Under the pieces are notes generated by a model, which saw only the letters and a program-made list of their open reading frames with translations, was not told where the DNA came from and did no database searches. Source: Rosistilla ulvae (GTDB lineage: Bacteria; Planctomycetota; Planctomycetia; Pirellulales; Pirellulaceae). From it: DNA of 64,000 nucleotides. The number at the start of each line of letters is the position of its first letter. Position 1 is the stretch's first letter. The translations under genes were made by a program, and so were the position numbers. Where the stretch lies: assembly GCF_007741475.1 (NCBI RefSeq), contig NZ_CP036261.1:2294001-2358000 (forward strand), read 5' to 3'. Below are positions 990-40,720 of the stretch, piece after piece.

Positions 990-2367
990 GCTGAACGCCC
1001 AAGAATCGCTGGCTCCGAATTAGTGTTCTGTTTTTCAGACCACTAATCTCCGCTGATCGACGCTAATCGTGCCGGTCAAAAGGCTGAGCGGTCTGGCTGT
1101 AGAACGCTCAAGAATTTCTGGCTCCGAATAAGCCCGGATCCGCGAAGATCAGTGTTCCGTTTCTCAGACCACTAATCTCCGCTGATCGACGCTAATCGAG
1201 GCGGTCAAAAAGCTGAGCGGTCTGGCTGCAGAGCGCTCAAGAATTTCTGGCTCCGAATTAGTGCCGATAAGTGCGGATCAGCGTTCCGTTTTTCAGACCA
1301 CTAATCTCCGCTGACCGACGCTAATCGTGCCGGTCAAAAAGCTGAGCGGTCTGGATGACGAACGCTCACGAATTTCTAGATTCCAATTAGTGCGGATCAG
1401 CGAAGATTAGTGTTTCGTTTCTTAAACCACTGATCTCCGCTGATCCTCGCCAATCAAGCCGGTTGAAAAATTAAGTTGTCTGGTGGCTGAGCGCTGGAGA
1501 AGTTCTGGATCTGAATGAGCGTCGATTAGGGCGGATCAGTGTTTCGTTCTTCAAACCACTGATCGTCGCTAGTCAACGCTAATCAAGCAGGTCGAAAAAT
1601 TAAGTTGTCTGGTGGCTGAGCGCTGGAGAATTTCTAGATCTGAATGAGCGTCGATTAGGGCGGATCAGTGTTTCGTTCTTCAAACCACTGATCGTCGCTA
1701 GTCAACGCTAATCAAGCAGGTCGAAAAATTAAGTTGTCTGGTGGCTGAGTGCTGGAGAACTTCTGGATCTGAATGAGCGTCGATTAGGGCGGATCAGTGT
1801 TTCGTTTTTCAGGCCACTGATCTTCGCTGATCCTCGCTAATCAAGCCGGTTGATAAATTAAGTTGTCTGGTGGCTGAGCGCTGGAGAATTTCTAGATCTG
1901 AATGAGCGTAGACTAGGGCGGATCAGTGTTTCGTTCTTCAAACCACTGATCTTCGCTAATCGACGCCAATCAAGCCGGTTGATAAATTAAGTTGTCTGGT
2001 GGCTGAGCGCTGGAGAATTTCTAGATCTGAATGAGCGTCGATTAGGGCGGATCAGTGTTTCGTTCTTCAGACCACTGATCTTCGCTGATCCTCGCTAATC
2101 AAGCCGGTTGATAAATTAAGTTGTCTGGTGGCTGAGTGCTGGAGAATTTCTGGATCTGAATGAGCGTAGATTAGGGCGGATCAGTGTTTCGTTCTTCAAA
2201 CCACTGATCTTCGCTGATCCTCGCTAATCAAGCAGGTTGAAAAATTAAGTTGTCTGGTGGCTGAGTGCTGGAGAATTTCTGGATCTGAATGAGCGTAGAT
2301 TAGGGCGGATCAGTGTTTCGTTCTTCAAACCACTGATCTTCGCTAATCGACGCTTATCAAGCCGGTG
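990..2367. repeat. Tandem array, about 11 units of 129 bp with internal inverted repeat
   Basis: The string gtctgg recurs at 1091, 1220, 1349 and 1478, and tggtggctga recurs at 1481, 1610, 1739, 1868, 1997, 2126 and 2255, so the period is exactly 129 bp. The first unit is about 20 bp short. Each unit carries an imperfect inverted repeat: in the unit at 1386-1454 two 27-bp arms (1386-1412 and 1428-1454) pair at 22 of 27 positions around a 15-nt loop. Later units keep the same geometry with about 20 of 27 pairs. GATC occurs several times per unit. I see no sustained reading frame. The array lies between the 3' end of the isochorismatase-type gene and the 5' end of psd. Confidence 0.95.
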
Positions 2368-2525: not shown

Positions 2526-3263
2526 CTACGGGGATGTGGCGGAGTTGGCGGGGACCAGCGGTTGGAGCATGCCGGTGACTTCGGCGAACGTTAGGATCCG
2601 TGCGTAGCGGTCGCGGAGTGTCGCCAGCGACGCTTCGTGCAGCTCGGGCGTGACGGTGGCACAACAGTCTTCGACGACGGTCACCAGATAGCCTAGATCG
2701 CAGGCGTCGCGGACTGTCGTTTCCACACATTCATTGGTGTAGACACCGACGACAAACAGCGATTCGATCCCCATGTTTTTTAGCACGTAGTGCAAGTTGG
2801 TCGACGAAAAAACGCCGCTAGCCGTCTTGTTGATCACGATTTCGTCACGCGACTCATCGGGGCCGACGATCTCTAAAAAATCGGCTTCACGCGATCCGGG
2901 CGCCGCCAATAGCCCGAGCCGTCGATGCCCTTTGCTGCGGTCGCGCCCGTCGCGGGTGAGCGCTTGGATCCGCGTGTGGATTACTTCCAGTCCGTGAGTG
3001 CGGAAGCCGTCTTGCAGACCGCGAACGTTTGGCAACACCGTCTGCTGCAGTCGATCGAAATAATACTCCTGCGCCTCCTGAGGCACTCCGCTGTTCATCG
3101 CATCTTTAAAAACGCCATGCCCGGGAGCGGCATCGAGGTATTGCAGATCGATGCACAATAGCGCCGTCCGCCCCTCGACCAAGAACTCCCGGTGGGCGGG
3201 GTTCTCGACAAACGATTCGTGATAGACCTCTTTGAGCGGATCGACGTGTTCGTTATCGGTCAT
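2526..3263 (-). CDS. Isochorismatase-family cysteine hydrolase (putative ureido/amide hydrolase)
   Basis: This 245-residue protein has the isochorismatase-like hydrolase fold. The expected Asp-Lys-Cys triad is visible: Asp in LLCIDLQ near residue 38, Lys in INKTASGVF near 141, and Cys in YTNECVETT near 178. The family includes N-carbamoylsarcosine amidase, biuret hydrolase, RutB and nicotinamidase, and I cannot pick the substrate. The start is placed at ATG 3263-3261 because a good AGGAAAAG ribosome site precedes it and the family homology begins there, although the frame is open further upstream. It is the last gene of the seven-gene minus-strand operon, 50 bp after the M20 hydrolase. Following a carbamoylase-type enzyme, a C-N hydrolase acting on a carbamoyl, ureido or amide product is the likeliest role. 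Confidence 0.88.
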   Translation of the reverse strand: MTDNEHVDPLKEVYHESFVENPAHREFLVEGRTALLCIDLQYLDAAPGHGVFKDAMNSGVPQEAQEYYFDRLQQTVLPNVRGLQDGFRTHGLEVIHTRIQALTRDGRDRSKGHRRLGLLAAPGSREADFLEIVGPDESRDEIVINKTASGVFSSTNLHYVLKNMGIESLFVVGVYTNECVETTVRDACDLGYLVTVVEDCCATVTPELHEASLATLRDRYARILTFAEVTGMLQPLVPANSATSP

Positions 3264-3313
3264 CGGCAACTTTTCCTGACAGCGGGTTTTGTTCGGGTGA
3301 AATATTCGGAGGT

Positions 3314-4558
3314 TCAGTTGGTGGCGGAACTCAGCTGCACCAAGGTTTGTAACATCAAATTTGCCCCCGCTTCGATGTCCGACCAAGCTGTCCATTCGGC
3401 AGGCGAATGACTCTGCCCGTTTTTACTGGGCACAAAGATCATCCCGACCGGAACCATGCTACCCATGATCTGGGCATCGTGAGCGGCTCCGCTGGGCATC
3501 CGTAGGTGATCGAGTTCCAGTTTGCTGGCCTGATCCATCAACAGTTGGACGATCGCGTCGTGGCAAGCAACCGGCCGCAGATAACTCTTCTGTGCAAACT
3601 CAAACATCAGATTGCGGCGACGAGCGATCGCTGAAAGCGCTTTGCGAAAAGCCGTCCCGAGTTCCTCGAGCACCGCTTCGCTGGTATCGCGAACGTCCAA
3701 GGAGAATTCGACCAGACCGGGGACGGTATTGGTAGCCCCCGGCAGGATCTGGGCTTTGCCGATCGTCGTGCGGCTGCGATCGCTGCCGTTCTCTTCCAGG
3801 ATCCGCGGGATTTCATGAGCGAAATCAGCAAGTCCCATGAAGGCGTCGTTCCGCATTTCCATCGGCGTCGTCCCGGCGTGGTTCGCTTCCCCACGCAACG
3901 TGACCGCCCATGTGAACAGCCCGGTGATCTCGTCGACCACTCCGACCGCCTTCTTGGTTCGATCCAAGACCGGTCCCTGTTCGATGTGCAGTTCGATGTA
4001 GGCGGCGATCGATTCGGGAACCCGAGCTGCGTCCAAAGCTGACAACGCATCGTGACCGTGCCGCCCCAATTCGTCGCGCAACAGAACGCCGTTCATGTCG
4101 GTCGTCGTTTCCAACGACTGAGGATTCAGTTGGCCGCAGACGGCTTGTGAACCAAACATTCCGCCAAAGCGGCCCTCTTCGTCGCTGAACGCGATCAGTT
4201 CGAGCGTCCTGTCGGGTTGGAAACCGGTCTCTCGCAGCGTCCGCAGACACTCCAGTCCGACCACGACACCAAGCGTTCCGTCTAACGCACCGGCACACGG
4301 CACGGTGTCGATGTGCGAACCGACCAGCACGCGCGGGGCGTCGGTGGTTCCCGAAAGCTCTCCCGAGATGTTCATCGCACCATCGGTCGACGCGATTAGG
4401 TCCGCTTGTTCGATCTGTTGTGTCAGCCAGCGTTTGCCCTGGATGTCGGCGTCGGTGAACGCCATCCGGTAGATCCCACGATCGGATTCGCGGCGGCCAA
4501 TTTTGGCCAGCGTCAGGATGTCGCGTTTGATGCGTTCGAGGTCGACGCGGATTTCCAT
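3314..4558 (-). CDS. M20-family Zn hydrolase, N-carbamoyl-amino-acid / allantoate amidohydrolase type
   Basis: This 414-residue dinuclear metallohydrolase belongs to the HyuC/AllC branch of M20. Metal-ligand motifs are visible: GSHIDTVPCAGALDG near residue 79, SDEEGRFGG near 126, ELHIEQGPVLD near 189, and a C-terminal SGAAHDAQ segment. Members hydrolyse N-carbamoyl amino acids or allantoate, releasing ammonia and CO2. Two adjacent ATGs occur at 4561 and 4558; the second lies at a better distance from the AGGA ribosome site, and either gives the same protein apart from one Met. It follows the AsnB-type gene by about 55 bp. Together with the carbamoyltransferase two genes upstream, it suggests carbamoyl chemistry in one pathway. 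The exact substrate is unknown. Confidence 0.9.
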   Translation of the reverse strand: MEIRVDLERIKRDILTLAKIGRRESDRGIYRMAFTDADIQGKRWLTQQIEQADLIASTDGAMNISGELSGTTDAPRVLVGSHIDTVPCAGALDGTLGVVVGLECLRTLRETGFQPDRTLELIAFSDEEGRFGGMFGSQAVCGQLNPQSLETTTDMNGVLLRDELGRHGHDALSALDAARVPESIAAYIELHIEQGPVLDRTKKAVGVVDEITGLFTWAVTLRGEANHAGTTPMEMRNDAFMGLADFAHEIPRILEENGSDRSRTTIGKAQILPGATNTVPGLVEFSLDVRDTSEAVLEELGTAFRKALSAIARRRNLMFEFAQKSYLRPVACHDAIVQLLMDQASKLELDHLRMPSGAAHDAQIMGSMVPVGMIFVPSKNGQSHSPAEWTAWSDIEAGANLMLQTLVQLSSATN

Positions 4559-4614
4559 CATGGTTCCTGTAGAGAAAAGATCCCCGGCAAAGCTGCCGGG
4601 GAAGCGTGAATGAA

Positions 4615-6534
4615 TCAATCGACAGCGGGCAGCGGCATCCCTTCGACATATTGGCCGTGCAAGATGTGCAACTGCAAAGCGTGGTTCATGATGATGTCGT
4701 TGCGGCGAGCGATCGTGTGATCGGTCTCCTGCCACGCTTGATCGATGAAATCACGCAGCTTTTTCGTGTCGAAGACGCCCAACGCCGCGATCCGGGCGTC
4801 GGTCAACCAATGGTCGATCATGTCCTGCAGCGCCGCCCGAATCACCGGCGACGTGTGGGCTGGCGGAGCCATGAAAGCAAACTTCTTCCGCTCGTACAGT
4901 TCTCGCGGCAAGACGTTGACCATCGCCTCTCGCAACACCCACTTTTCGATTCCATCGCGGATCCGCACGTCGGGCGGAATCGTGACAGCGTATTCGGCGA
5001 TGTGATGGTCCAGGAATGCCGGGCGGGCTTCCATGCTGTTGGCCATATCCATTCGGTCGCCACCCCAAGTCAAGATCTGCCCTTCGAGCATCGTCTTGCA
5101 CCAGGTGTATTGCGAGACGTCCAAGCGATGTCGGCCGCGAACCTGATCCGGATCGATCGCTCCGGCAACTTCGGCAACGGGATCGTACTGCTGCATCAGA
5201 TCTTGCATCGACGACGACAACAGCGGCCGGACGCGGGCCAGCGTCATCATCCAGGGCTGGATCCACGATGGCGTGAAGCCACACAGATCGTCCCAGGCCG
5301 GGTGACGAAGATCCTCTTCGGCCAGGATCGCTCCGGCAAAGATCCCCGCATCGTCCTCGCGCCCCAACCAATCGCGTTTGAAGAACGGATAGCCGCCAAA
5401 GAGTTCGTCGGACCCTTCGCCGGTGATTACCGCTTTGTAATTACAAGCTCGCACGCGGCGGCTCATGTGCCACTTGGCAACCGCCAGCGTGTTGTAGAAC
5501 GTCCGTTCGGCGTGCCACGTGGCTCGTTCGAAAGCAGGTCCATAGAGTTCCTTTTCGGTAAGCAGCAGCAGTTCCTGCTCCGCCCCGGTCCGCTGTGCCA
5601 TCAGTTTGGCGATGTTCGATTCGTCGTATTCGTCGCTGTCGAACGCGATCGTAAAGGCTTTGATCGGCGATTGTTGCAGCGTCGTTGCCAGCCCCAAGAT
5701 CGAACAGCTGTCGATCCCCCCCGACAGATAACATCCGACCGGCACGTCGGCTTCCAACCGCGTCGCGACCGCGTCGATCAAGCGATCTTGAACGCCTTGC
5801 ACGTATTCTGCTGGATCGGCGTTTTCGACGTGTGATTCGGGGAACTCGAGATCCCACCAACGCTTGAGCGATGTTTCCAAGCGGCCGTCGCGCTCTTGAA
5901 CGATCAACATATGACCGGGCTGCAACGCCTGGACGTCTTCGAACGCCGTCGATCCCGGCACCATCACCTGCATCATCTGGTGTATGACTGCTTTGGGGCA
6001 CATCCGCGGCTGGATGTCGGGATGTTTGAGGATCGATTTGACCTCCGATCCCCAAGCGATGCCGTTGTCGTTAACGGAATAATAGAGCGGTTTAACGCCA
6101 AAACGGTCGCGGATCAGGATCAGCCGTTTTTCGCGGGCGTCGTACAACACGACGGCAAATTCGCCTCGCAAATGTTCGACAAAGCTGAGCCCGTATTTGC
6201 GGTACAGCGGCAGCGTGATCGCACTGTCGCTCTTGCCCCCCGTCGTCAGCGTTTCACACGCCAATTGAGTCCGCAGCTTTTTGTAGCCATACAATTCGCC
6301 GTTGACCGTGACAGCCAGTTCGCCGTCGCGCGATTCGATCGGTTGGTGACCGTGATCCAAACCGACGATCGAGAGCCGCGTGTGCCCCAGGGCGAGCCCT
6401 TTCTCTGGGTACAGTCGACTGCCGCGATCGTCGGGACCGCGGTGATCGAGGACGTCGAGCATTTGGTCGAGCGCGGTGCGCAGTTGACGTTCGCTAGTTC
6501 GCGATGGGTTCCAGAATCCAGTGATTCCACACAT
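4615..6534 (-). CDS. asnB: Glutamine-hydrolysing asparagine synthetase-like amidotransferase
   Basis: This 639-residue AsnB-type enzyme combines an N-terminal class II glutaminase domain with a C-terminal ATP-pyrophosphatase synthetase domain. The nucleophilic Cys2 is present (MCGITGFW), followed by HRGPDD, VNGELYGY and RDRFGVKPLYY. The synthetase part shows the PP-loop YLSGGIDS near residue 270, ITGEGSDELFGGY, and NSMEARPAFLDHH. Length and motifs match functional asparagine synthetases, so the glutaminase half should be active. It may simply make asparagine, but AsnB-like enzymes also amidate other carboxylates or form beta-lactams, and its place between a divergent carbamoyltransferase and an N-carbamoylase-type hydrolase favours a dedicated substrate. 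The large frame on the opposite strand (4606-5835) is a shadow. Confidence 0.92.
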   Translation of the reverse strand: MCGITGFWNPSRTSERQLRTALDQMLDVLDHRGPDDRGSRLYPEKGLALGHTRLSIVGLDHGHQPIESRDGELAVTVNGELYGYKKLRTQLACETLTTGGKSDSAITLPLYRKYGLSFVEHLRGEFAVVLYDAREKRLILIRDRFGVKPLYYSVNDNGIAWGSEVKSILKHPDIQPRMCPKAVIHQMMQVMVPGSTAFEDVQALQPGHMLIVQERDGRLETSLKRWWDLEFPESHVENADPAEYVQGVQDRLIDAVATRLEADVPVGCYLSGGIDSCSILGLATTLQQSPIKAFTIAFDSDEYDESNIAKLMAQRTGAEQELLLLTEKELYGPAFERATWHAERTFYNTLAVAKWHMSRRVRACNYKAVITGEGSDELFGGYPFFKRDWLGREDDAGIFAGAILAEEDLRHPAWDDLCGFTPSWIQPWMMTLARVRPLLSSSMQDLMQQYDPVAEVAGAIDPDQVRGRHRLDVSQYTWCKTMLEGQILTWGGDRMDMANSMEARPAFLDHHIAEYAVTIPPDVRIRDGIEKWVLREAMVNVLPRELYERKKFAFMAPPAHTSPVIRAALQDMIDHWLTDARIAALGVFDTKKLRDFIDQAWQETDHTIARRNDIIMNHALQLHILHGQYVEGMPLPAVD

Positions 6535-6624
6535 GGTTAAATTCGCTTTGTACAGTTCGTGACGAAGTGAGTTTCAGCGGTGGCGCGACGCCGCGGGTCG
6601 CGCGCGTTCCGGCCGTGGCAGGTG

Positions 6625-7701
6625 CTATAGATCGCTGATCCGATTGAGTCGCTGGAGCACCGAGACCAGCAGCGCTTGGCGGACGAAGACCGCACCGGCC
6701 GCTTGGGCGAAGTAGAGGTTGTGATCGGTGTCGTCGAGATCTTCGGAGAGTTCATCGTTGCGAGCCAATGGATGCATCACCACAGCCCCCGGCTTCAGAT
6801 CGCTGGCGAGTTCCAATTTGTAACGGCCATCGAGGTTCCGATAGCTGTCACCGAGGAAGGCGATCGAATTGACATAGACGACATCCAGCTCTTTGAGAAC
6901 CTTCTGCACGTCGTTGGTGACTTCGATCGGGATCGGCGATTGTTCGATCGGTTCGGTCAAGTCGAGCCCAACCGGATCGGCCATTTCGGAGACCAGCGTG
7001 ATCTTGGAAACCGCGCCGGCGAACATCAACGACAACCGCAGGAAGCTTTTCACAGCACGCATCGATCCGGGCGTACCGATGATTCCCAAATGGATCCGCC
7101 GCTCGGGCGGACAATCGGGGCGGCACAGTTCGGGACGCCATTTCAGCAGCGCGTACCAATCGATCAACGCCTGAGTCGGATGATGGCCGCTGCCATTGCC
7201 GGCATTGATCAACGGACGCTGCAGATTCTTTTGGATCTCTTCGATCGAATTTGTATCGGGATGCCGCATGATCACGATATCGCCGTACGTGTTGAACATC
7301 TCGCCGATGTCGGCCAGCGATTCCCCTTTGGCGATTCCGGTCACCTGCCCATCGGGGACCGACAGAACTTTGCCGTCGAGTCGCAGCAGGGCGCTTTCAA
7401 ACGAGAGCCGCGTGCGGGTACTCGCTTCGAAAAACGCAGTGATCGCGATCTTGCCGTCAAGCGGCTTTTCCATCTCGACGTTCCGCGTCTCCAACAGCGC
7501 CGCCAACTGCGCCAGCGCGACGACAGTGCGGCGATCGAATTGGCGGGGGTTTAAGATCGATTGACCAGCGAGCGCTTCGAGCGCTTCGCGATCGATCTTG
7601 CCATCGGTGACATCCAACAGACGCTGCGGATCCAGCAGCTGGCCTTTGGAGTTCGATGCATTGGGTTGCAGTGCGAGCGATCGTTGTTCTTCCGTATTCA
7701 T
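6625..7701 (-). CDS. Aspartate/ornithine carbamoyltransferase-family protein with altered acceptor site
   Basis: This 358-residue protein has the two-domain transcarbamylase fold plus an N-terminal extension of about 45 residues. The carbamoyl-phosphate site is intact: FFEASTRTRLSFE near residue 97, AKGESLAD near 125, an Arg in IVIMRHP, HHPTQALID near 173, and an Arg in GSMRAVKS. The acceptor side departs from E. coli PyrB as I remember it: the TRVQ segment that contacts aspartate aligns with NSIA near residue 276, and HPLPR reads HPLAR near 308. This suggests a real carbamoyltransferase for an acceptor other than aspartate. The start is ATG 7701-7699, with a GGTAGGG ribosome site overlapping the stop of the small gene before it. 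No pyrI or other pyrimidine genes are nearby. Confidence 0.88.
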   Translation of the reverse strand: MNTEEQRSLALQPNASNSKGQLLDPQRLLDVTDGKIDREALEALAGQSILNPRQFDRRTVVALAQLAALLETRNVEMEKPLDGKIAITAFFEASTRTRLSFESALLRLDGKVLSVPDGQVTGIAKGESLADIGEMFNTYGDIVIMRHPDTNSIEEIQKNLQRPLINAGNGSGHHPTQALIDWYALLKWRPELCRPDCPPERRIHLGIIGTPGSMRAVKSFLRLSLMFAGAVSKITLVSEMADPVGLDLTEPIEQSPIPIEVTNDVQKVLKELDVVYVNSIAFLGDSYRNLDGRYKLELASDLKPGAVVMHPLARNDELSEDLDDTDHNLYFAQAAGAVFVRQALLVSVLQRLNRISDL

Positions 7702-7712
7702 AAAATGATGCC

Positions 7713-7838
7713 CTACCAAATGCGGTTTTTTCGCAAATCACTAAACAAGAACCCAATCAACAGCACTGCCCCGGCAGTACACAGCAAGAGTCCCCCCAGC
7801 ACGATGACTTTCAAAAGCCAGACCGGAAATATTAACAT
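7713..7838 (-). CDS. 41-residue single-pass membrane peptide coupled to the symporter
   Basis: This small frame starts at ATG 7838-7836, overlapping the symporter stop by 7 nt (the TAA lies inside ATGTTAA), and ends at TAG 7715-7713, 11 nt before the carbamoyltransferase start. The product begins MLIFPVWLLKVIV, has one hydrophobic helix covering about residues 3-31, and ends with the basic tail DLRKNRIW. The GGAGGG upstream of its ATG can serve as a ribosome site. Tight coupling to a sodium:solute symporter suggests a small accessory subunit, as known for some other sodium symporters, but I recognise no named family. It is too short to be caught by usual length cut-offs. Confidence 0.7.
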   Translation of the reverse strand: MLIFPVWLLKVIVLGGLLLCTAGAVLLIGFLFSDLRKNRIW

Positions 7839-9316
7839 TCGAATCCCTCCTCCGCCGCCCGTCGATCGCGGTCGGGCGTCCTGTTTTGTTGTGACAATTG
7901 CTTGAAGTCGAAGCGATCGGGAATCAGCCATGTCAGCAACGCGAAAACGATTCCCGATACCGTCGCGCCAATCAGCGATGCGACGAACCATCCGATGGCA
8001 AAATAGGCAACCAAGCCCAGGCTGCTGCCAGCGACCATCGCGGCTCCAGCAGCCCACGGACTGGGGCGACCGAAGTAGAGTCCGCCGACGATCGGCCAAA
8101 TACAACTGCCCACCATGGGGCCTGCGAAAAACAAGACGGTTGCTAGCGTGCCGATGTTCGCCCAAGCGATCGCCCAAGCGATCAGCCCCAAGATTAGAAT
8201 GCTCAGCACCGACAATTTGCGTTTGGTCGTATCGTTCAGATCGCTTCCGGCGGCTCGTTCGAAGATGTCGTTGACCATCAGATCGCTGGTCGCGGCCAAC
8301 AGGCTGTCGATACTGGAGGCCAACGAGCAGAAGACGATCACAAACACAAACAACGCTCCGCCAGTTCCCAACAGCGTCGCCGCGACCAATGGACCGGCGA
8401 TGTCGGGCTGGCTGATTCCAATCCCCAGTGCCGGCGCGGCCAAGCCGAGGAAGCCGGCGACGATTGGAACTGGCAACCACAACAGCCCGCCCAAAGCGTA
8501 AGCCTTGGGGCCAACGCCTTCGCGCATCGCAAACGCCCGGCTCCACCAGACGTTGCTGTGAAAGATCTCGCCAAATCCGAATAACATGTTGTTGAACACG
8601 GCCATCAGCGCTGCCGGAAACAGGACCGACAGCAGCATCGGCCGCTCCGTCTGCAATTGGGTGTGAACGTCGGCGATGTCGACGTGCAATAGGACCGCGA
8701 TCGCCACGACGACCAAACCGACCAGGATGATCAGGCTTTGGATGAAATCGGTTCCGATCACGGCGTACATTCCGCCAAACAGAGTATACAGAACGCAGAC
8801 CCCCAGAACCGCTGACATGCCGACTTCGTAGGGGATTCCCGACAGCACATTCAACAATTTGCCGCCGGCCATCGCCATCGAGATCAACCATGTCATCGCG
8901 TAGAAGAGCGAGATGACCAGGAACGGGATCGCGCCGAGTTGCCCGTAGCGGCGGCGAACAAATTCGACGGCGGTGTAGCCGTGAGGCATCAGTTGCCGAA
9001 TCCGGCCACTCATCGGCGCAAACGCGAACAATCCAAAACTGGCTGTCGAATAGGTCAACGCACCCCAGACACCCAGTTGCAGTGCGAACTGCGGCGCGAG
9101 CATCGTCGTGTTCGATGTGATCCATGTCGCCACTGCAGTCGCCGTTCCTAGGGCGAGTCCGACGTTGCGGCCGGCGACAGCAAACCCGTCGTACGACTTC
9201 GCTTGCCGTCCCCACCAGATTCCAAGTGCAATCCACAGGATGCCAAACGTGATCAACAGCGCGTAACCGGCGTTGGGGCTGAGGATCGTGTTGGCGAAAA
9301 TCGGTCCATCGATCAT
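7832..9316 (-). CDS. Sodium:solute symporter (SSS family)
   Basis: This 494-residue polytopic inner-membrane protein has the layout of the SSS family: a periplasmic N-terminus, about 13 hydrophobic segments, WGRQAKSYDGFAVAGRNVG after the first helix, a helix with ATWITSNTTM, and the Gly-rich LFGGMYAVIGTDF segment. Members import sugars, amino acids, pantothenate, urea or nucleosides with sodium. The start is ATG 9316-9314, which overlaps the stop of the upstream FN3 gene (ATGA). The 41-residue peptide gene overlaps its 3' end. As the only transporter in the operon it probably brings in the substrate of the downstream carbamoyl and amide enzymes. The substrate cannot be read from sequence. Confidence 0.92.
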   Translation of the reverse strand: MIDGPIFANTILSPNAGYALLITFGILWIALGIWWGRQAKSYDGFAVAGRNVGLALGTATAVATWITSNTTMLAPQFALQLGVWGALTYSTASFGLFAFAPMSGRIRQLMPHGYTAVEFVRRRYGQLGAIPFLVISLFYAMTWLISMAMAGGKLLNVLSGIPYEVGMSAVLGVCVLYTLFGGMYAVIGTDFIQSLIILVGLVVVAIAVLLHVDIADVHTQLQTERPMLLSVLFPAALMAVFNNMLFGFGEIFHSNVWWSRAFAMREGVGPKAYALGGLLWLPVPIVAGFLGLAAPALGIGISQPDIAGPLVAATLLGTGGALFVFVIVFCSLASSIDSLLAATSDLMVNDIFERAAGSDLNDTTKRKLSVLSILILGLIAWAIAWANIGTLATVLFFAGPMVGSCIWPIVGGLYFGRPSPWAAGAAMVAGSSLGLVAYFAIGWFVASLIGATVSGIVFALLTWLIPDRFDFKQLSQQNRTPDRDRRAAEEGFEC

Positions 9317-9765
9317 GATCCGCTCCCTTCGCTGCGAGGTTCTCCATGCGACGTCCGCCACGTTCCGACAACGATCAGGCCGATGATCGCAAGGAACACG
9401 ACCATCCCACATGACAGTAGCATCAGTGAAAACGACAGCGACCAATGCTTGACTTCGACTGAAGCGGGGACCGTCGACCGGGCCAATTCGTTGCCGTCGC
9501 TATCGAGTGCGCGAACGTTAAACCGATAGGTTCCATCGGCCAGTCCCGAGATAAACGCTTCGGGAAACAAGCCTCGATAACGCGACAACCCCGTGTCGTC
9601 GATCACCTGGTACTCCGTCGCCTCCGCGACCTCGTTCCATCGCAGCGTCAGATAACCTTCTTGAACTGCCGTAAACTCGGTTTCGGAGAATCGCAGCGGA
9701 TCTTCCGCAGCGGCGGCGAGGGAAAATGAAAATAGAAACGCTAGGGCAACAGCAGCCAATCGCAA
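9313..9765 (-). CDS. Secreted/membrane-anchored FN3-like protein, first gene of the operon
   Basis: This 150-residue protein has an N-terminal signal peptide (MRLAAVALAFLFSFSLAAAA), a domain resembling fibronectin type III at about residues 25-105 (LTLRWNEVAEATEYQV and GTYRFNVRALDSDG), and a C-terminal transmembrane helix (LMLLSCGMVVFLAIIGLIVV) followed by a short charged tail. Its domain should therefore face the periplasm. The start is a TTG at 9765-9763, chosen because GAGGAC lies 8 nt upstream and the signal peptide begins there; the nearby ATG at 9779 is in another frame. The stop overlaps the symporter start by 4 nt, implying a functional pairing. It might bind substrate or stabilise the transporter. 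No named family recognised. Confidence 0.82.
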   Translation of the reverse strand: MRLAAVALAFLFSFSLAAAAEDPLRFSETEFTAVQEGYLTLRWNEVAEATEYQVIDDTGLSRYRGLFPEAFISGLADGTYRFNVRALDSDGNELARSTVPASVEVKHWSLSFSLMLLSCGMVVFLAIIGLIVVGTWRTSHGEPRSEGSGS

Positions 9766-9984
9766 GCAACCGTCCTCATTGTGGTGGTGTTGATGGTTTG
9801 TGCTGTAAGCACTTCGCTGAACGGTTTTGCCACGGGCACGCGATGTTTACCGCTCTTCTCCAGTGAAATCGCCGCTGCCAATGATGAAGCGTTCGATCGT
9901 ATCAGAAATTGTTTAGAGCTGAAAGTATTGTGACGCGGTCGGTGGGGGCAAAGTTGGTTTTGGCAATTTGCCGAATGCGAGCCG

Positions 9985-11290
9985 CGATCCATCGCCAACC
10001 CGTCGCTCCGCGTCGATTTGTAGGCAGCTTCATTTTTTTGCCACAGAGGACGCGGAGGCCACTGAGTTTTTTTCGTAGGACAGATTGGCTGACGAAGGTG
10101 TCGCGCCCGGCTGCTTGTCTGCTGATTACGGGAAGCTTGGAAATTGAGGAACTTGGTGCCCGTGGTTTGGGGATCCGTTCATTCGCGTTGATTAGTGTTA
10201 TTCGCGGGCAGCTGTTAATTCGCAGGCAGCTGATTCGGCTCACGGAGGCGCAGAGCTCACGGAGCAAGCGGCCGGTGAAGCGCGCTAACAACGCAACATA
10301 TTAAAAATATAGATCCGCTCCCTGCCCGTCCCATTCGCGCTATTGGCGGGCAGATATTTTTAAACGCAGAGGCGCAGAGGTCGCTGAGTTTTTGTTCGGT
10401 AAGACAGGTCGGTCGACGAAGGTGCTGCGCCGGGTTTCTTGCCCGCAGGTCACTTGAGACTTGCGAAGCTTGAAGATTGAAGAACTTGGTGACCGTGGTT
10501 TGGGGGAACGGTTCTTTCGCGTCGATTGGTGTTATTCGCGGGCAACTGATTTGGCTCACGGAGGCGCAGAGCTCACGGAGCAAGCGGCCGGTGAAGCGCG
10601 CTAACAACGCAACATATTAAAAATATAGATCCGCTCCCTGCTCGTCCCATGCGCGTCGATTGGCGTTATTCGCGGGCAGATATTTTTAAACGCAGAGGCG
10701 CAGAGGACGCAGAGGTTTGGTTTGGTAAGACAGGTCGGTCGACGAAGACGTCGCGCCGGGCTTCTTGCCCGTTGCTCCTGCGAAGCTTGCGCTTCTTGAA
10801 AATTGAAGAACTTGTTGCCATGGTTTGGGGAGCCGATGATTTGCGTCGATTGGCGTTATTCTCGGGCAGTTTCGTTTCTAGCCACAGAGGACGCAGAGGT
10901 CACTGAGTTTTTGTTTGGTTAAGAATGATTGGTCGTCGAAGACGCTGCGCCGGGCCGCTGATCTCGCGAGTCTTGGGAATTGAAAAACTTGTTGTCGGTG
11001 GATTCGCGGGAGCCGCCCTTTCGCGTCGATTGGTGTTATTCGCGGGCAGATATTTTTAAACGCAGAGGCGCAGAGGACGCAGAGGTTTGGTTTGGTAAGA
11101 CAGGTCGGTCGACGAAGACGTCGCGCCGGGCTTGCTGGCAGCGGATCACGCGAAGCTTGGAAATTTGGGATGACGTACAGAAGCCTTTGACCTGCGTGCT
11201 CTCGTCTCCATTTCGCGTCGATTTGCGATATTCGCGGGCAGCTTCCATTTCTAGCCACAGTGGTCACGAAGGTCGCTGAGTTTTTGTTTG
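9985..11290. repeat. Intergenic repeat block with 'cgcagaggcgcagag' elements
   Basis: The region between the FN3 gene and the MarR gene (about 1.7 kb) holds no supported gene. It consists of degenerate copies of one composite unit: a 'cgcgtcgattggtgttattcg' segment, a 'cgcagaggcgcagag' core, and a 'gacaggtcggtcgacgaag' segment. The string acgcaacata recurs at 10291 and 10607, a spacing of 316 bp, and gcgtcgat plus its following unit recurs at 10653 and 11023, a spacing of 370 bp. Short open frames inside are repeats of each other and not convincing genes. Related blocks lie at 14.8-16.8 and 39.0-40.7 kb. Confidence 0.85.
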
Positions 11291-11512
11291 GTCAGGACTC
11301 TGTGTTGGTGGGATCGACGCATTTCCTTTTGGCGTGCCAGTGCAGGGGACTGAGGCTTGGTGGGCTTTCGAACCGTTGCCAACGACGCTCGCTGCGGTCA
11401 CAATTCGAAGCGGTTGCGGCGGGAGCGTTGCTGGGGCAGCGGTATGTTTCCGGCGTGACGCTGGGGCACGTGTTATTTAATCCTCCGCCGGGGCTCGTTC
11501 AAAAGAGAACTA

Positions 11513-12022
11513 ATGCCATTGCTTACTCATGAAGATCAGATCGTCGCCGCGATCCGGCAGATCATCCGTGCCGTCGACCTGCATTCGCGTCAACTGGTCA
11601 ACGGACATGGCATGACGGGGCCTCAGTTGGCGGTGTTGCAGGAGGCGGAGCGTTTGGGGCCGGTCTCGCCGAGCGCTCTGTCGCGAGCTGTCCATTTGAG
11701 TCAAGCGACGGTGACCGGGATCCTGCAGCGATTGGAGCGACGAGGATTGATCCAACGTGAACAATGTGTTGCCGATCGGCGATCGGTCCTGGTCCAAACG
11801 ACACCCGTCGGACAACAATTGCTGACCGCATCCCCCTCGTTGTTGCAAGACCGCTTCCGCGATTCACTCTCGGCGCTCGAGGATTGGGAGCGGTTGCAAA
11901 TCTTGTCGACGTTGCAGCGGGTGGCCGCGTTGATGGATGCCGAGCATATCGACGCCGCACCTCACCTGACCTCCGGCGATATCCCCACCCCAATCGACGA
12001 CCTGCCCGCTCAGACCCCATAA
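11513..12022 (+). CDS. MarR-family transcriptional regulator
   Basis: This 169-residue cytoplasmic DNA-binding protein has the MarR winged-helix layout: an N-terminal dimerisation helix, the helix-turn-helix at about residues 45-85 (SPSALSRAVHLSQATVTGIL), a wing containing EQCVADRRSVLV, where the DRR arginines are typical of the family, and a C-terminal helix. The start is ATG 11513, after AAGAGAAC. The last 25 residues are Pro/Asp-rich and look like an unstructured tail. Its ligand and targets are unknown; it is followed after about 240 bp by the aldose epimerase gene, which could be a target. Confidence 0.9.
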   Translation: MPLLTHEDQIVAAIRQIIRAVDLHSRQLVNGHGMTGPQLAVLQEAERLGPVSPSALSRAVHLSQATVTGILQRLERRGLIQREQCVADRRSVLVQTTPVGQQLLTASPSLLQDRFRDSLSALEDWERLQILSTLQRVAALMDAEHIDAAPHLTSGDIPTPIDDLPAQTP

Positions 12023-38974: not shown

Positions 38975-40720
38975 GCGATGATCTTCGCTCTTTTGTTTAG
39001 CCACAGAGGGCACAGAGAACACGGAGGTGGCGTTTCGTTTCAAAAGCCAATCAGCAACCAAGCTTTCCGATACTCCAGTTCGTTTGGGTGCTTGGAAGGC
39101 AAGAAAACTGGCGCATCGAGTCTGCCCGGGAATAACGCCAATAACGCGAATGGGACGATCAGGGATCCGCGAGCTTAAGTTATCAAATTTCGCGCTGTCC
39201 GCGGGATTAGCGGGCAAACAATACCGCCGCCACCGCACGGCGGTTCTTCACCTGGCCACCTAAGACTCAGTGTCCTCTGGGCCCTCTGTGGCTTAAAAAA
39301 TGTCTGCTCGCGAATATCGCAAATCGACGCGAAAGGAACTGCAGGTCGTTGATCTGTTCTATTTTCAAGATTGGCACTGTTCGCGAGATTCGCGGGCAAA
39401 CAATACCGCCGCCACACGCTTCGGTTCTTCACCTCGCCCCCCAAGAACTCTGTGTCCTCTGCGCCCTCTGTGGCAAGGGAAAGAGAAGGTGCCCGCGAAT
39501 AACGCGAATGGGACGATCAGGGATCTGCGAGTTTGAATTTTCAAGTTTCGCGTTGTACGCGTGATTCACCACGCGCAAGCTCCGTGTGCTCTGCGCCTAT
39601 GTGAGCAGAAAAATCAGGTGCCCGCGAATATCGCGAATCGACGCGAATGGGGGCGAGGCAGGTTAGAGGTCGATGATCTTCGCTCTTTTGTTTAGCCACA
39701 GAGGGCGCAGAGAACACGGAGGTGGCGTTTCGTTTAAAAAGCCAACCAGCAACCAAGCTTTCCGATGCTCCAGTTCGTTGCGTGCTTGGCAGGCAAGAAA
39801 ACTGGCCCATCGAGTCTGCCCGCGAATAACGCGAATGGGACGATCAGGGATCTGCGAGTTTGAATTTTCAAATTTCGCGTTGTTCGCGTGATTCACCACG
39901 CGCAGGCTCCGTTTGCTCAGCGCCTCTGTGAGCAGAAAAATCAGTTGCCCGCGAATCGACGCGAATGGGGGCGAGGCAGGTTAGAGGTCGATGATCTTCG
40001 CTCTTTTGTTTAGCCACAGAGGGCACAGGGAACACGGAGGTGGCGTTTCGTTTCAAAAGCCAACCAGCAACCAAGCTTTCCGGTGCTCCAGTTCGTTGCG
40101 TGCTTGGAAGGCAAGAAAACTGGCGCATCGAGTCTGCCCGCGAATAACGCCAATAGCGCGAATGGGGCAAACAGGGATCTGTGAGTTTGAATTTTCAAAT
40201 TTCGCGTTGTACGCGTGATTCACCACGCGCAAGCTCCGTGTGCTCTGCGCCTCTGGGAGCGGAAAAATCAGTTGCCCGCGAATCGACGCGAATCGACGCG
40301 AATCAGCGAGAGGCTTTTCTTTTGTTTTCAAGATTCGCTTTGTTCTCGCCGGAATCGCGCAGTCCTGATTGGTCGGTCCATCTTGCCACGTAAAAACTCA
40401 GTGTCCTCTGCGCCCTCTGTGGCAAGGGAAAGAGAAGGTGCCCGCGAATAACGCGAATGGGACGATCAGGGATCTGCGAGTTTGGATTTTCAAATTTCGC
40501 GTTGTTCGCGTGATTCACCACGTGCAAACTCCGTGTACTCTGCGCCTCTGTGAGCAGAAAAATCAGTTGCCTGCGAATCGACGCGAATGGGGGCGAGGCA
40601 GGTTAGAGGTCGATGATCTTCGCTCTATTGTTAAGCCACGGAGGACGCAGAGAGCACCGAGGTGGTCTTTCCTTGCAAGATTTACCAGCAACAGAGCTTG
40701 CCGATTTTCAAGATTCGCTT
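38975..40720. repeat. Intergenic repeat block with two 318-bp tandem units
   Basis: The string ttagaggtcgatgatcttcg occurs at 39663 and 39981 (318 bp apart) and again at 40603, with a shortened copy near 38977. Each unit runs through a 'gccacagagggcgcagag' core, 'ccaaccagcaaccaagcttt', 'ctgcccgcgaataacgc' and 'gtgattcaccacgcgc' modules. The first about 190 bp are almost identical to 16518-16715, in the same orientation. No gene is supported; the open frames repeat the same peptides. Confidence 0.88.

Follow-up and report, generated by a model that had tools for sequence, protein, structure and literature searches.

We examined a 64,000-nucleotide stretch of the Rosistilla ulvae genome (contig NZ_CP036261.1, positions 2,294,001 to 2,358,000; hereafter the window), which carries a compact seven-gene operon on its minus strand; the source genome is one contig of 7.48 Mb. 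The operon encodes an FN3-like membrane protein, an SSS-family symporter, a 41-residue membrane peptide, a divergent carbamoyltransferase (CT), an AsnB-like amidotransferase, an M20-family hydrolase and an isochorismatase-type hydrolase (ICH), and a MarR-family gene reads away from it upstream (Table 1). We consider it very likely that this is a conserved osmolyte locus. Checking the open reading frames (ORFs) of the window bore out the tight packing given in a preliminary description of this DNA: the FN3-like and SSS genes overlap by 4 nt (ATGA), the SSS and peptide genes overlap by 7 nt, and gaps of 11, 90, 53 and 50 bp separate peptide from CT, CT from AsnB, AsnB from M20 and M20 from ICH. 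The gene labels in that description hold for the symporter, the carbamoyltransferase, AsnB and the two hydrolases, with Pfam matches above cut-off to SSF, OTCace_N and OTCace, GATase and Asn_synthase, Peptidase_M20 and its dimerization domain, and Isochorismatase. The FN3 label is not confirmed; the sole Pfam match of that protein is to Y_Y_Y, at 17.6 bits against a cut-off of 26.6.

Table 1 Features of the operon and its immediate surroundings, in window coordinates.
Feature	Position	Strand	Basis or remark
ICH, isochorismatase-fold cysteine amidohydrolase, 245 aa	2526..3263	-	Isochorismatase 122 bits
M20-family hydantoinase/carbamoylase-type hydrolase, 415 aa	3314..4561	-	TIGR01879 350.7 bits over 204
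Terminator-like hairpin, 9 bp, T-rich tail, in the AsnB-M20 gap	4581..4602	-	Hairpin scan
AsnB-like glutamine-dependent amidotransferase, 639 aa	4615..6534	-	Asn_synthase 306 bits; starts MCGITG
CT, divergent carbamoyltransferase, aspartate carbamoyltransferase fold, 358 aa	6625..7701	-	OTCace_N 118 bits
Single-transmembrane micropeptide ending in Trp, 41 aa	7713..7838	-	Located between SSS and CT
SSS-family Na+/solute symporter, 494 aa	7832..9316	-	SSF 71.4 bits, cut-off 22.8
FN3-like secreted or membrane-anchored protein, 150 aa	9313..9765	-	Sub-threshold Y_Y_Y; signal peptide and C-terminal transmembrane segment by eye
Repeat-rich spacer between operon and MarR gene	9766..11512	.	No blastn match in two congeners
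MarR-family regulator, EctR/CosR type, divergent from operon	11513..12022	+	Kinship to MarR beside ectABC

The gene order, whose loss in relatives would have spoken against the preliminary description, is kept in them. A first scan covered 149 genomes of the phylum, the source genome included, and returned one close CT relative, in genome G025 (61% identity), where SSS, peptide, CT and AsnB stand in the same order. CT matches at E <= 1e-20 occur in 82 of the 149 genomes; outside the source genome and G025 they reach at most 46% identity, and we took these to be other carbamoyltransferases. In the family to which the window belongs, CT is found at E <= 1e-80 in 23 of 149 genomes, the source genome and two congeners among them. 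A second scan gave 107 relatives, from which 80 loci were kept; their record titles span six phyla (planctomycetes, verrucomicrobia, bacteroidetes, myxobacteria, candidate division GN15 and Calditrichaeota). For gene content we used the 48 loci with at least 4.5 kb on either side of CT.

SSS, CT and AsnB occur together in all 48 of these full-flank loci, and because they are joined in every one, the linkage of the gene set exceeds chance. Both M20 and ICH are present in 36 (M20 lies on the CT strand in 24 and on the opposite strand in 12), two have M20 without ICH, and ten have neither; the M20 homologues of L060 and L062, at 31% identity, were excluded from this count. An FN3-like homologue is found in 32 of the 48 loci, at 24-54% identity. 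Since M20 and ICH are absent from ten loci that keep SSS, CT and AsnB, the operon consists of a core (FN3-SSS-peptide-CT-AsnB) and a second, separable module (M20-ICH). This split goes beyond the preliminary description, as do the divergent MarR gene and the osmolyte context described below. A comparison of the window with congener L245 shows about 5 to 8 times as many synonymous as amino-acid changes in CT (76:15), AsnB (130:16), M20 (90:16), SSS (161:30) and ICH (69:11); the genes for the FN3-like protein (37:38) and the peptide (12:10) change fast.

By its sequence, CT is an extra, third carbamoyltransferase beside PyrB and ArgF, because PyrB (L002) and an ornithine carbamoyltransferase (L003) are encoded in separate genes of the same genome. 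This PyrB scores 381.1 bits against NF002032 (cut-off 263) and 317.2 against TIGR00670 (cut-off 236.95) and keeps the LLRIQ motif; the ornithine carbamoyltransferase scores 333.9 over 280.85 and adjoins an argD-type aminotransferase gene (441.8 over 410.05). The best curated models for CT are aspartate carbamoyltransferases (ATCases), but it stays below both equivalog cut-offs, with 169.7 bits against TIGR00670 and 167 against NF002032. Its predicted structure (pLDDT 88, pTM 0.89) aligns with ATCases at TMt 0.80-0.88 among the best 50 structure matches; all 50 of these nearest solved chains are ATCases, and the nearest solved relatives by sequence are ATCases too. A tree that includes 30 other carbamoyltransferases from the phylum separates CT from them as a single clade, with support of 100/98 and a warning of long branches.

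The active site points to what CT may accept. The carbamoyl-phosphate motif STRTR (S94-R98), K125, H174, Q177 and R215 are conserved in 65 CT orthologues, and K125 and R215 align with the K84 and R167 positions of ATCase. In the alignment, the TRIQ segment of ATCase is replaced by NSIA; N278 and A281 are invariant in 28 sequences, and N278 and S279 are kept in at least 97% of the 65 orthologues. We assume that the Arg and Gln of TRIQ (Arg229/Gln231 type) are the binders of the aspartate side chain. Because R215 is kept while TRIQ has become NSIA, the acceptor probably retains an alpha-carboxylate without an acidic side chain, and we propose that CT is an N-alpha-carbamoyltransferase for L-glutamine or another neutral amino acid. 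PyrB shares the fold and the carbamoyl-phosphate motif with CT, but CT has the aspartate side-chain residues replaced, falls in a separate clade, sits in another operon and scores under the curated cut-offs. With the genome's own PyrB encoded elsewhere, we rejected the identification of CT as PyrB, in agreement with the earlier expectation that this is no ordinary PyrB. We also rejected YgeW as its identity, since CT scores 24.6 and 24.0 bits against YgeW models with cut-offs of 453 and 500.

The AsnB-like protein has the features of its type: an MCGITG start with an N-terminal Cys2, GATase and synthetase domains, and an SGGxDS loop, whose S271-G-G-x-D-S is conserved in 64 orthologues. It passes the asparagine synthase model TIGR01536 (406.6 over 267.1), but this pass is not decisive because the amidotransferase for N-acetylglutaminylglutamine amide (NAGGN) passes likewise (456.5). 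The claim that it is not an ordinary AsnB is neither upheld nor overturned by this model. The protein also falls short of the NAGGN model TIGR03104 (274.4 against 570.1). AsnO amidates a carboxylate in NAGGN synthesis, and we propose that the enzyme here amidates the alpha-carboxyl group of a carbamoyl amino acid.

The two hydrolases are predicted to act in the opposite direction. M20 belongs by score to the hydantoinase/carbamoylase family TIGR01879, and its nearest solved enzyme is the L-N-carbamoylase 3n5f (265.8 bits, vs 192.3 for the allantoate amidohydrolase 1z2l). H83, D94, E128/E129, H192 and H385, which we take to be metal ligands, are conserved in 42 homologues, including those of L060 and L062. 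We propose that M20 removes the carbamoyl group. In ICH, D39, K146 and C179, presumably the Asp-Lys-Cys catalytic triad, are conserved in 37 orthologues. Its nearest solved relatives are the cysteine hydrolases 6xix and 6xj4, with biuret hydrolase and RutB also among its relatives, and it scores under the equivalog cut-offs for biuret hydrolase (71.8 against 370), RutB (51.5 against 377.95) and nicotinamidase (43.9 against 174 bits). For ICH we propose removal of the amide.

We propose that the SSS symporter imports the solute. In all 77 testable loci the interval between SSS and CT encodes a peptide with a single hydrophobic span; by eye, each of these peptides ends in Trp, and many follow the pattern RDxKxxxLW. 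Outside this count are L115, because of a large gap, and L061 and L084, which had no usable SSS-CT pair. Pfam and NCBIfam scans returned no family match for the 41-residue peptide, and one of three homologues scanned gave a sub-threshold match (17.3 bits, cut-off 80). The peptide could well be a small subunit of SSS, with MetS of the NSS transporters as an analogue. The FN3-like membrane protein is a probable transport accessory.

The likely product of this set of enzymes is an N-carbamoyl amino acid amide. Within that class we lean toward N-carbamoyl-glutamine amide (CGA), because CGA carries exactly the two groups that these enzyme types add; the glutamine is taken from the known solute, not from the sequence. 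CGA has been known since 1991, when it was reported from a purple sulfur bacterium (cited in PMC1224877); the same review presents it as an osmolyte whose amino and carboxyl charges are masked. No gene for CGA is named in the accessible parts of the papers that we found (PMC1224877, PMC3857566, PMC7824335), and the literature searched gave no description of this pathway or gene combination. The locus is thus of a known kind, a compatible-solute cluster with MarR control, whose pathway we did not find described. It is slightly better than an even bet that we are looking at the first CGA gene set, a complete system to make, import and recycle the solute under EctR/CosR-type control, spread across planctomycetes, verrucomicrobia, bacteroidetes, myxobacteria and others, with a new symporter subunit of about 40 residues that ends in Trp.

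We infer the following scheme. With carbamoyl phosphate as donor, CT would carbamoylate L-glutamine at its alpha-amino group. The AsnB-like enzyme would then use ATP and glutamine nitrogen to amidate the alpha-carboxylate, and the resulting solute would be neutral and rich in nitrogen. SSS, with its 41-residue subunit and the FN3-like membrane protein, would import this solute. Once the cell has no more need of it, ICH would take off the amide and M20 the carbamoyl group, yielding glutamine, ammonia and CO2. The EctR/CosR-type MarR would repress the operon at low salinity. The presence in one operon of enzymes that add and remove a carbamoyl group and of enzymes that make and remove an amide would be explained by M20 and ICH reversing CT and AsnB. 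The linked pathway of uptake, carbamoyl transfer, amidation and C-N hydrolysis in the preliminary description thus finds support at the level of predicted function.

Two things speak for a compatible solute: the company kept by relatives of the regulator, and betaine genes beside the cluster itself. By sequence, the MarR protein is of the EctR/CosR type, a kinship established through MarR proteins that stand beside compatible-solute genes rather than through a characterised EctR or CosR. Its identity to the MarR protein encoded ahead of ectABC(D) in L131 and L132 is 51-54%, and to five MarR paralogues of its own genome no more than 35%, over partial length. MarR and FN3 are some 350-365 bp apart in L244 and L245, two congeners, and 1.7 kb of repeat-rich DNA fills this interval in the window. 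In the accessible parts of the literature, CosR and EctR are known repressors of compatible-solute (ectoine, betaine) genes (PMC7876524, PMC13342039), and SSS importers (EctI) are reported in planctomycete ectoine clusters (PMC13342039).

MarR homologues at E <= 1e-15 occur at 33 places in 32 of 294 genomes of the phylum. We examined 28 of these places: the window, the CT locus L035, and 26 others; those left out (G023, G287, G131, G253 and G178) all have E values of 2.5e-22 or weaker. Osmolyte genes lie near MarR in 18 of the 26 regions other than the two CT loci: ectABC in six, ablAB-type aminomutase-acetyltransferase pairs in six, a ProV-like ATPase (at least 54% identity) in four, and a NAGGN amidotransferase and a sucrose-phosphate synthase in one each. 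As a control, none of 25 regions around a different MarR family (five from the source genome and 20 hand-picked from about 100 places) has osmolyte genes, with weak ProV-like matches (29-33%) in two regions left uncounted. The abl, sucrose-phosphate synthase, ProV and AsnO queries in this test were chosen after viewing the test loci, and six of the counted regions (L131, L203, L204, L205, L206 and L213) are themselves query sources. The ect regions came from an independent search, and all six also appear in the MarR homologue list. The contig of L210 ends within the ProV match, which covers 33% of the query, and MarR and ectD of L141 are about 4 kb apart.

Curated models back many of these assignments. 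AblA scores 779.6 in L213 and 763.9 in L216 (cut-off 525.4), and AblB scores 344.5, 335.2 and 214.5 (cut-off 205.1). The NAGGN amidotransferase of L204, beside the same MarR type, reaches 996.4 over 570.1. For ProV, L203 just passes (327.8 over 326.6) and L201 is under the cut-off at 266.5; the sucrose-phosphate synthase passes in its phosphatase domain (257.3 over 209.75) and is just under in its glycosyltransferase domain (563.5 against 576). One MarR subfamily may thus mark compatible-solute loci well enough to find new ones.

Several further observations concern this regulator. Sites resembling CTTTGAGCTGAAAG (at most one mismatch) lie upstream of MarR at L244:10787, L245:10757, L035:6172, L042:3779, L046:6504, L077:7804 and L207:69, and represent a possible operator; further matches occur elsewhere in L036, L038, L042, L045 and L054, and none was found in the first 14 kb of the window, in the six ect regions scanned or in the 25 control regions. 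In L206-L209, a divergent pair of lysine-2,3-aminomutase-like and AblB-like genes adjoins the EctR-type MarR. Because the aminomutase is under the AblA cut-off of 525.4 where scanned (262.5 in L206, 261.7 in L208), the amino acid of this pair may be other than lysine. A fused methyltransferase (L199:8960-10663, L201:4969-6654), whose EgtD-like half scores 165.5 and 190.8 bits against a cut-off of 290.9, stands near an EctR-type MarR and a ProV-like ATPase and is possibly part of another route to a methylated osmolyte.

Osmolyte genes also adjoin the cluster directly. Genes for glycine-betaine synthesis and uptake are found next to it in six of the 80 loci. Immediately upstream of FN3, and in the same orientation, L036, L037, L041, L042 and L045 carry genes for a glycine/sarcosine methyltransferase (GSMT), a sarcosine/dimethylglycine methyltransferase-like (SDMT-like) protein and a BCCT transporter. 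The Phycisphaerales locus L055 has these genes divergent from the cluster, with BCCT cut by the contig end, and L046 has remnants. In L045, GSMT scores 494.7 bits over 350, the SDMT-like protein is under its equivalog cut-off (374.6 against 550), and BCCT passes the family model (447.7 over 407.55) and is under the betaine model (501.5 against 650). We take most of the named isolates among the 80 loci to be marine, and nine labels of metagenome-assembled genomes match soda-lake sample codes in a database listing.

A peptide of 70-79 residues, SP76, is conserved upstream of FN3 in L036, L037, L041, L042 and L044-L047, including L044 and L047, where GSMT, SDMT and BCCT were not found, and L046 with its remnants.

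The cluster shares traits with three known systems. For CGA of halophiles, the predicted chemistry (an N-carbamoyl group and a 1-amide) and the osmolyte role are the same; no genes are named for CGA in the accessible literature. The accessible part of PMC7824335 states that CGA in halophiles occurs in addition to betaine, just as betaine genes adjoin the cluster here in six loci. The ectoine cluster ectR-ectABC(D) has in common with it dedicated synthesis genes, an importer (EctI SSS or other) and, next to these genes or divergent from them, a MarR gene from the same subfamily, but our cluster has no ect gene, uses other chemistry and often includes a breakdown module. In NAGGN synthesis, conversion of a carboxylate to an amide by an AsnB-type enzyme yields a neutral, glutamine-derived osmolyte. 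The NAGGN cluster shares this enzyme type and the MarR type (L204) with ours, whereas ours has a carbamoyl rather than an acetyl group, no dipeptide, and an AsnB well below TIGR03104.

A number of observations weigh against the osmolyte reading or its details. Eight of the 26 MarR regions did not qualify as osmolyte loci: L212, L214 and L217 with weak or indirect evidence, L202 with a 29% ProV-like match, and L200, L211, L215 and L218 with none. This MarR is present in six of the 12 ectoine regions fetched and missing in the other six, and it was found in 19 of the 80 CT loci, many of which are on short contigs. No protein of the source genome reaches the GSMT cut-off (top score 24.6 against 350 bits). 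We scanned 136 of 177 chosen proteins, from 403 listed, in the flanks of L054-L115 (two Aminotran_3 members were set aside); among the 25 Pfam families listed of 96, no osmolyte family appeared, and BCCT and GSMT within L054-L115 occur only in L055. A few hosts (Chitinophaga, Sphingobacterium) are, we assume, not marine, and no gammaproteobacterial label is among the 80 loci kept from the 107 relatives. The asparagine synthase match of AsnB and the 12 full-flank loci that lack ICH, ten of them also M20, count on the same side, as does the top curated score of M20, which is for the subfamily NF006771 'allantoate amidohydrolase' (525.1 over 399) and by sequence suits a ureide substrate equally well. 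As to the solute, the accessible part of PMC3857566 gives CGA as a minor solute in Ectothiorhodospira marismortui, and that of PMC3694870 lists sucrose, glutamate, trehalose and MGG by nuclear magnetic resonance in Rhodopirellula baltica DSM 10527. R. baltica BR-MGV (L047) carries the cluster, with AsnB matching there in two pieces.

How far do these points favor other explanations? With the same machinery and osmolyte role, the product could be another N-carbamoyl amino acid amide that has yet to be reported as a solute, built for instance on asparagine, glutamate or a beta-amino acid. Acceptor specificity is unreadable from sequence, the acceptor-site motif differs from that of ATCase, and the betaine neighbors and the MarR test apply equally to such a product; against it, the accessible parts of the literature that we found name no carbamoyl-amide osmolyte besides CGA, and we regard another amide as unlikely. 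A catabolic or nitrogen-scavenging route for ureides, hydantoins or carbamoyl amino acids, toward which the preliminary description leaned and in which CT would run backwards to recover carbamoyl phosphate, would fit the NF006771 match of M20, the ureide hydrolases among the relatives of ICH and the presence of an importer. Yet the hydrolases are not the core, because ten full-flank loci hold SSS, CT and AsnB without them. An amidotransferase that uses ATP is unexpected in breakdown, the regulator and neighbors are of osmolyte type, M20 misses the AllC equivalog TIGR03176 (267.5 against 597.75) and CT misses YgeW. Among the 25 families listed of the 96 in the 136 flanking proteins, hydantoinase, allantoinase, carbamate kinase and purine-ureide families are all missing. 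These findings make a catabolic route improbable. Although M20 passes the allantoate amidohydrolase subfamily model, we rejected purine-ureide catabolism as the function of the cluster on the flanking families listed and the core without hydrolases. The partial resemblance to the ygeW/ygeY purine-ureide region proposed in the preliminary description finds no support. In E. coli, ygeW and ygeY encode a carbamoyltransferase and a nearby M20 hydrolase, but CT is not YgeW-like, and here AsnB and SSS belong to the core.

We consider it quite improbable that CT and AsnB decorate a larger molecule, as in natural product or cell-envelope modification. AsnB does match the amidotransferase models for XrtA/EPS (358.9) and for lasso peptides (200.1), in neither case reaching the cut-off, and its nearest solved relative is the hydroxyamidotransferase 7ylz; however, clustering of the neighboring proteins revealed no recurring scaffold-making enzyme with the core, and the importer, the hydrolase module and the EctR/CosR-type regulator better fit a small, recyclable solute. 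Ordinary metabolism, with a spare PyrB and AsnB that are neighbors by chance, is barely credible. The best models of CT are ATCases and AsnB passes the asparagine synthase model, but CT misses the cut-offs that the genome's own PyrB passes, has the aspartate side-chain residues replaced, forms its own clade (with the warning given above) and travels with SSS and AsnB across phyla.

If the CGA reading is right, a solute so far reported from very few phototrophs would become a common marine and soda-lake osmolyte, adding a nitrogen-rich, labile compound to the marine and soda-lake pool, and amidated glutamine osmolytes would extend from NAGGN to a carbamoyl form. The conserved two-enzyme candidate makes the question of the CGA genes directly testable.

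Identity to congener L244 is uneven along the operon: 95-98% at the DNA level in CT, AsnB and M20, 90% in ICH, 85% in SSS and 75% in the FN3-like gene. This mosaic suggests recombination inside the operon. The hairpin in the AsnB-M20 gap is one of 15 terminator-like sites found, against 11.9 expected. It has one stem base altered in L244, and there is no alignment at this position in L245; because it is not kept in these congeners, we did not treat it as a conserved element and dropped it as a module boundary between AsnB and M20. Just downstream of the operon, at window positions 1022-2366, a 129-bp unit is repeated in tandem 10.4 times, and no ORF of at least 35 residues is listed at 1023-2485. 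Repeats with 177-bp and 327-bp periods occur at 9766-11512 and 39502-40293. We judged the downstream array and the upstream repeats to lie outside the system.

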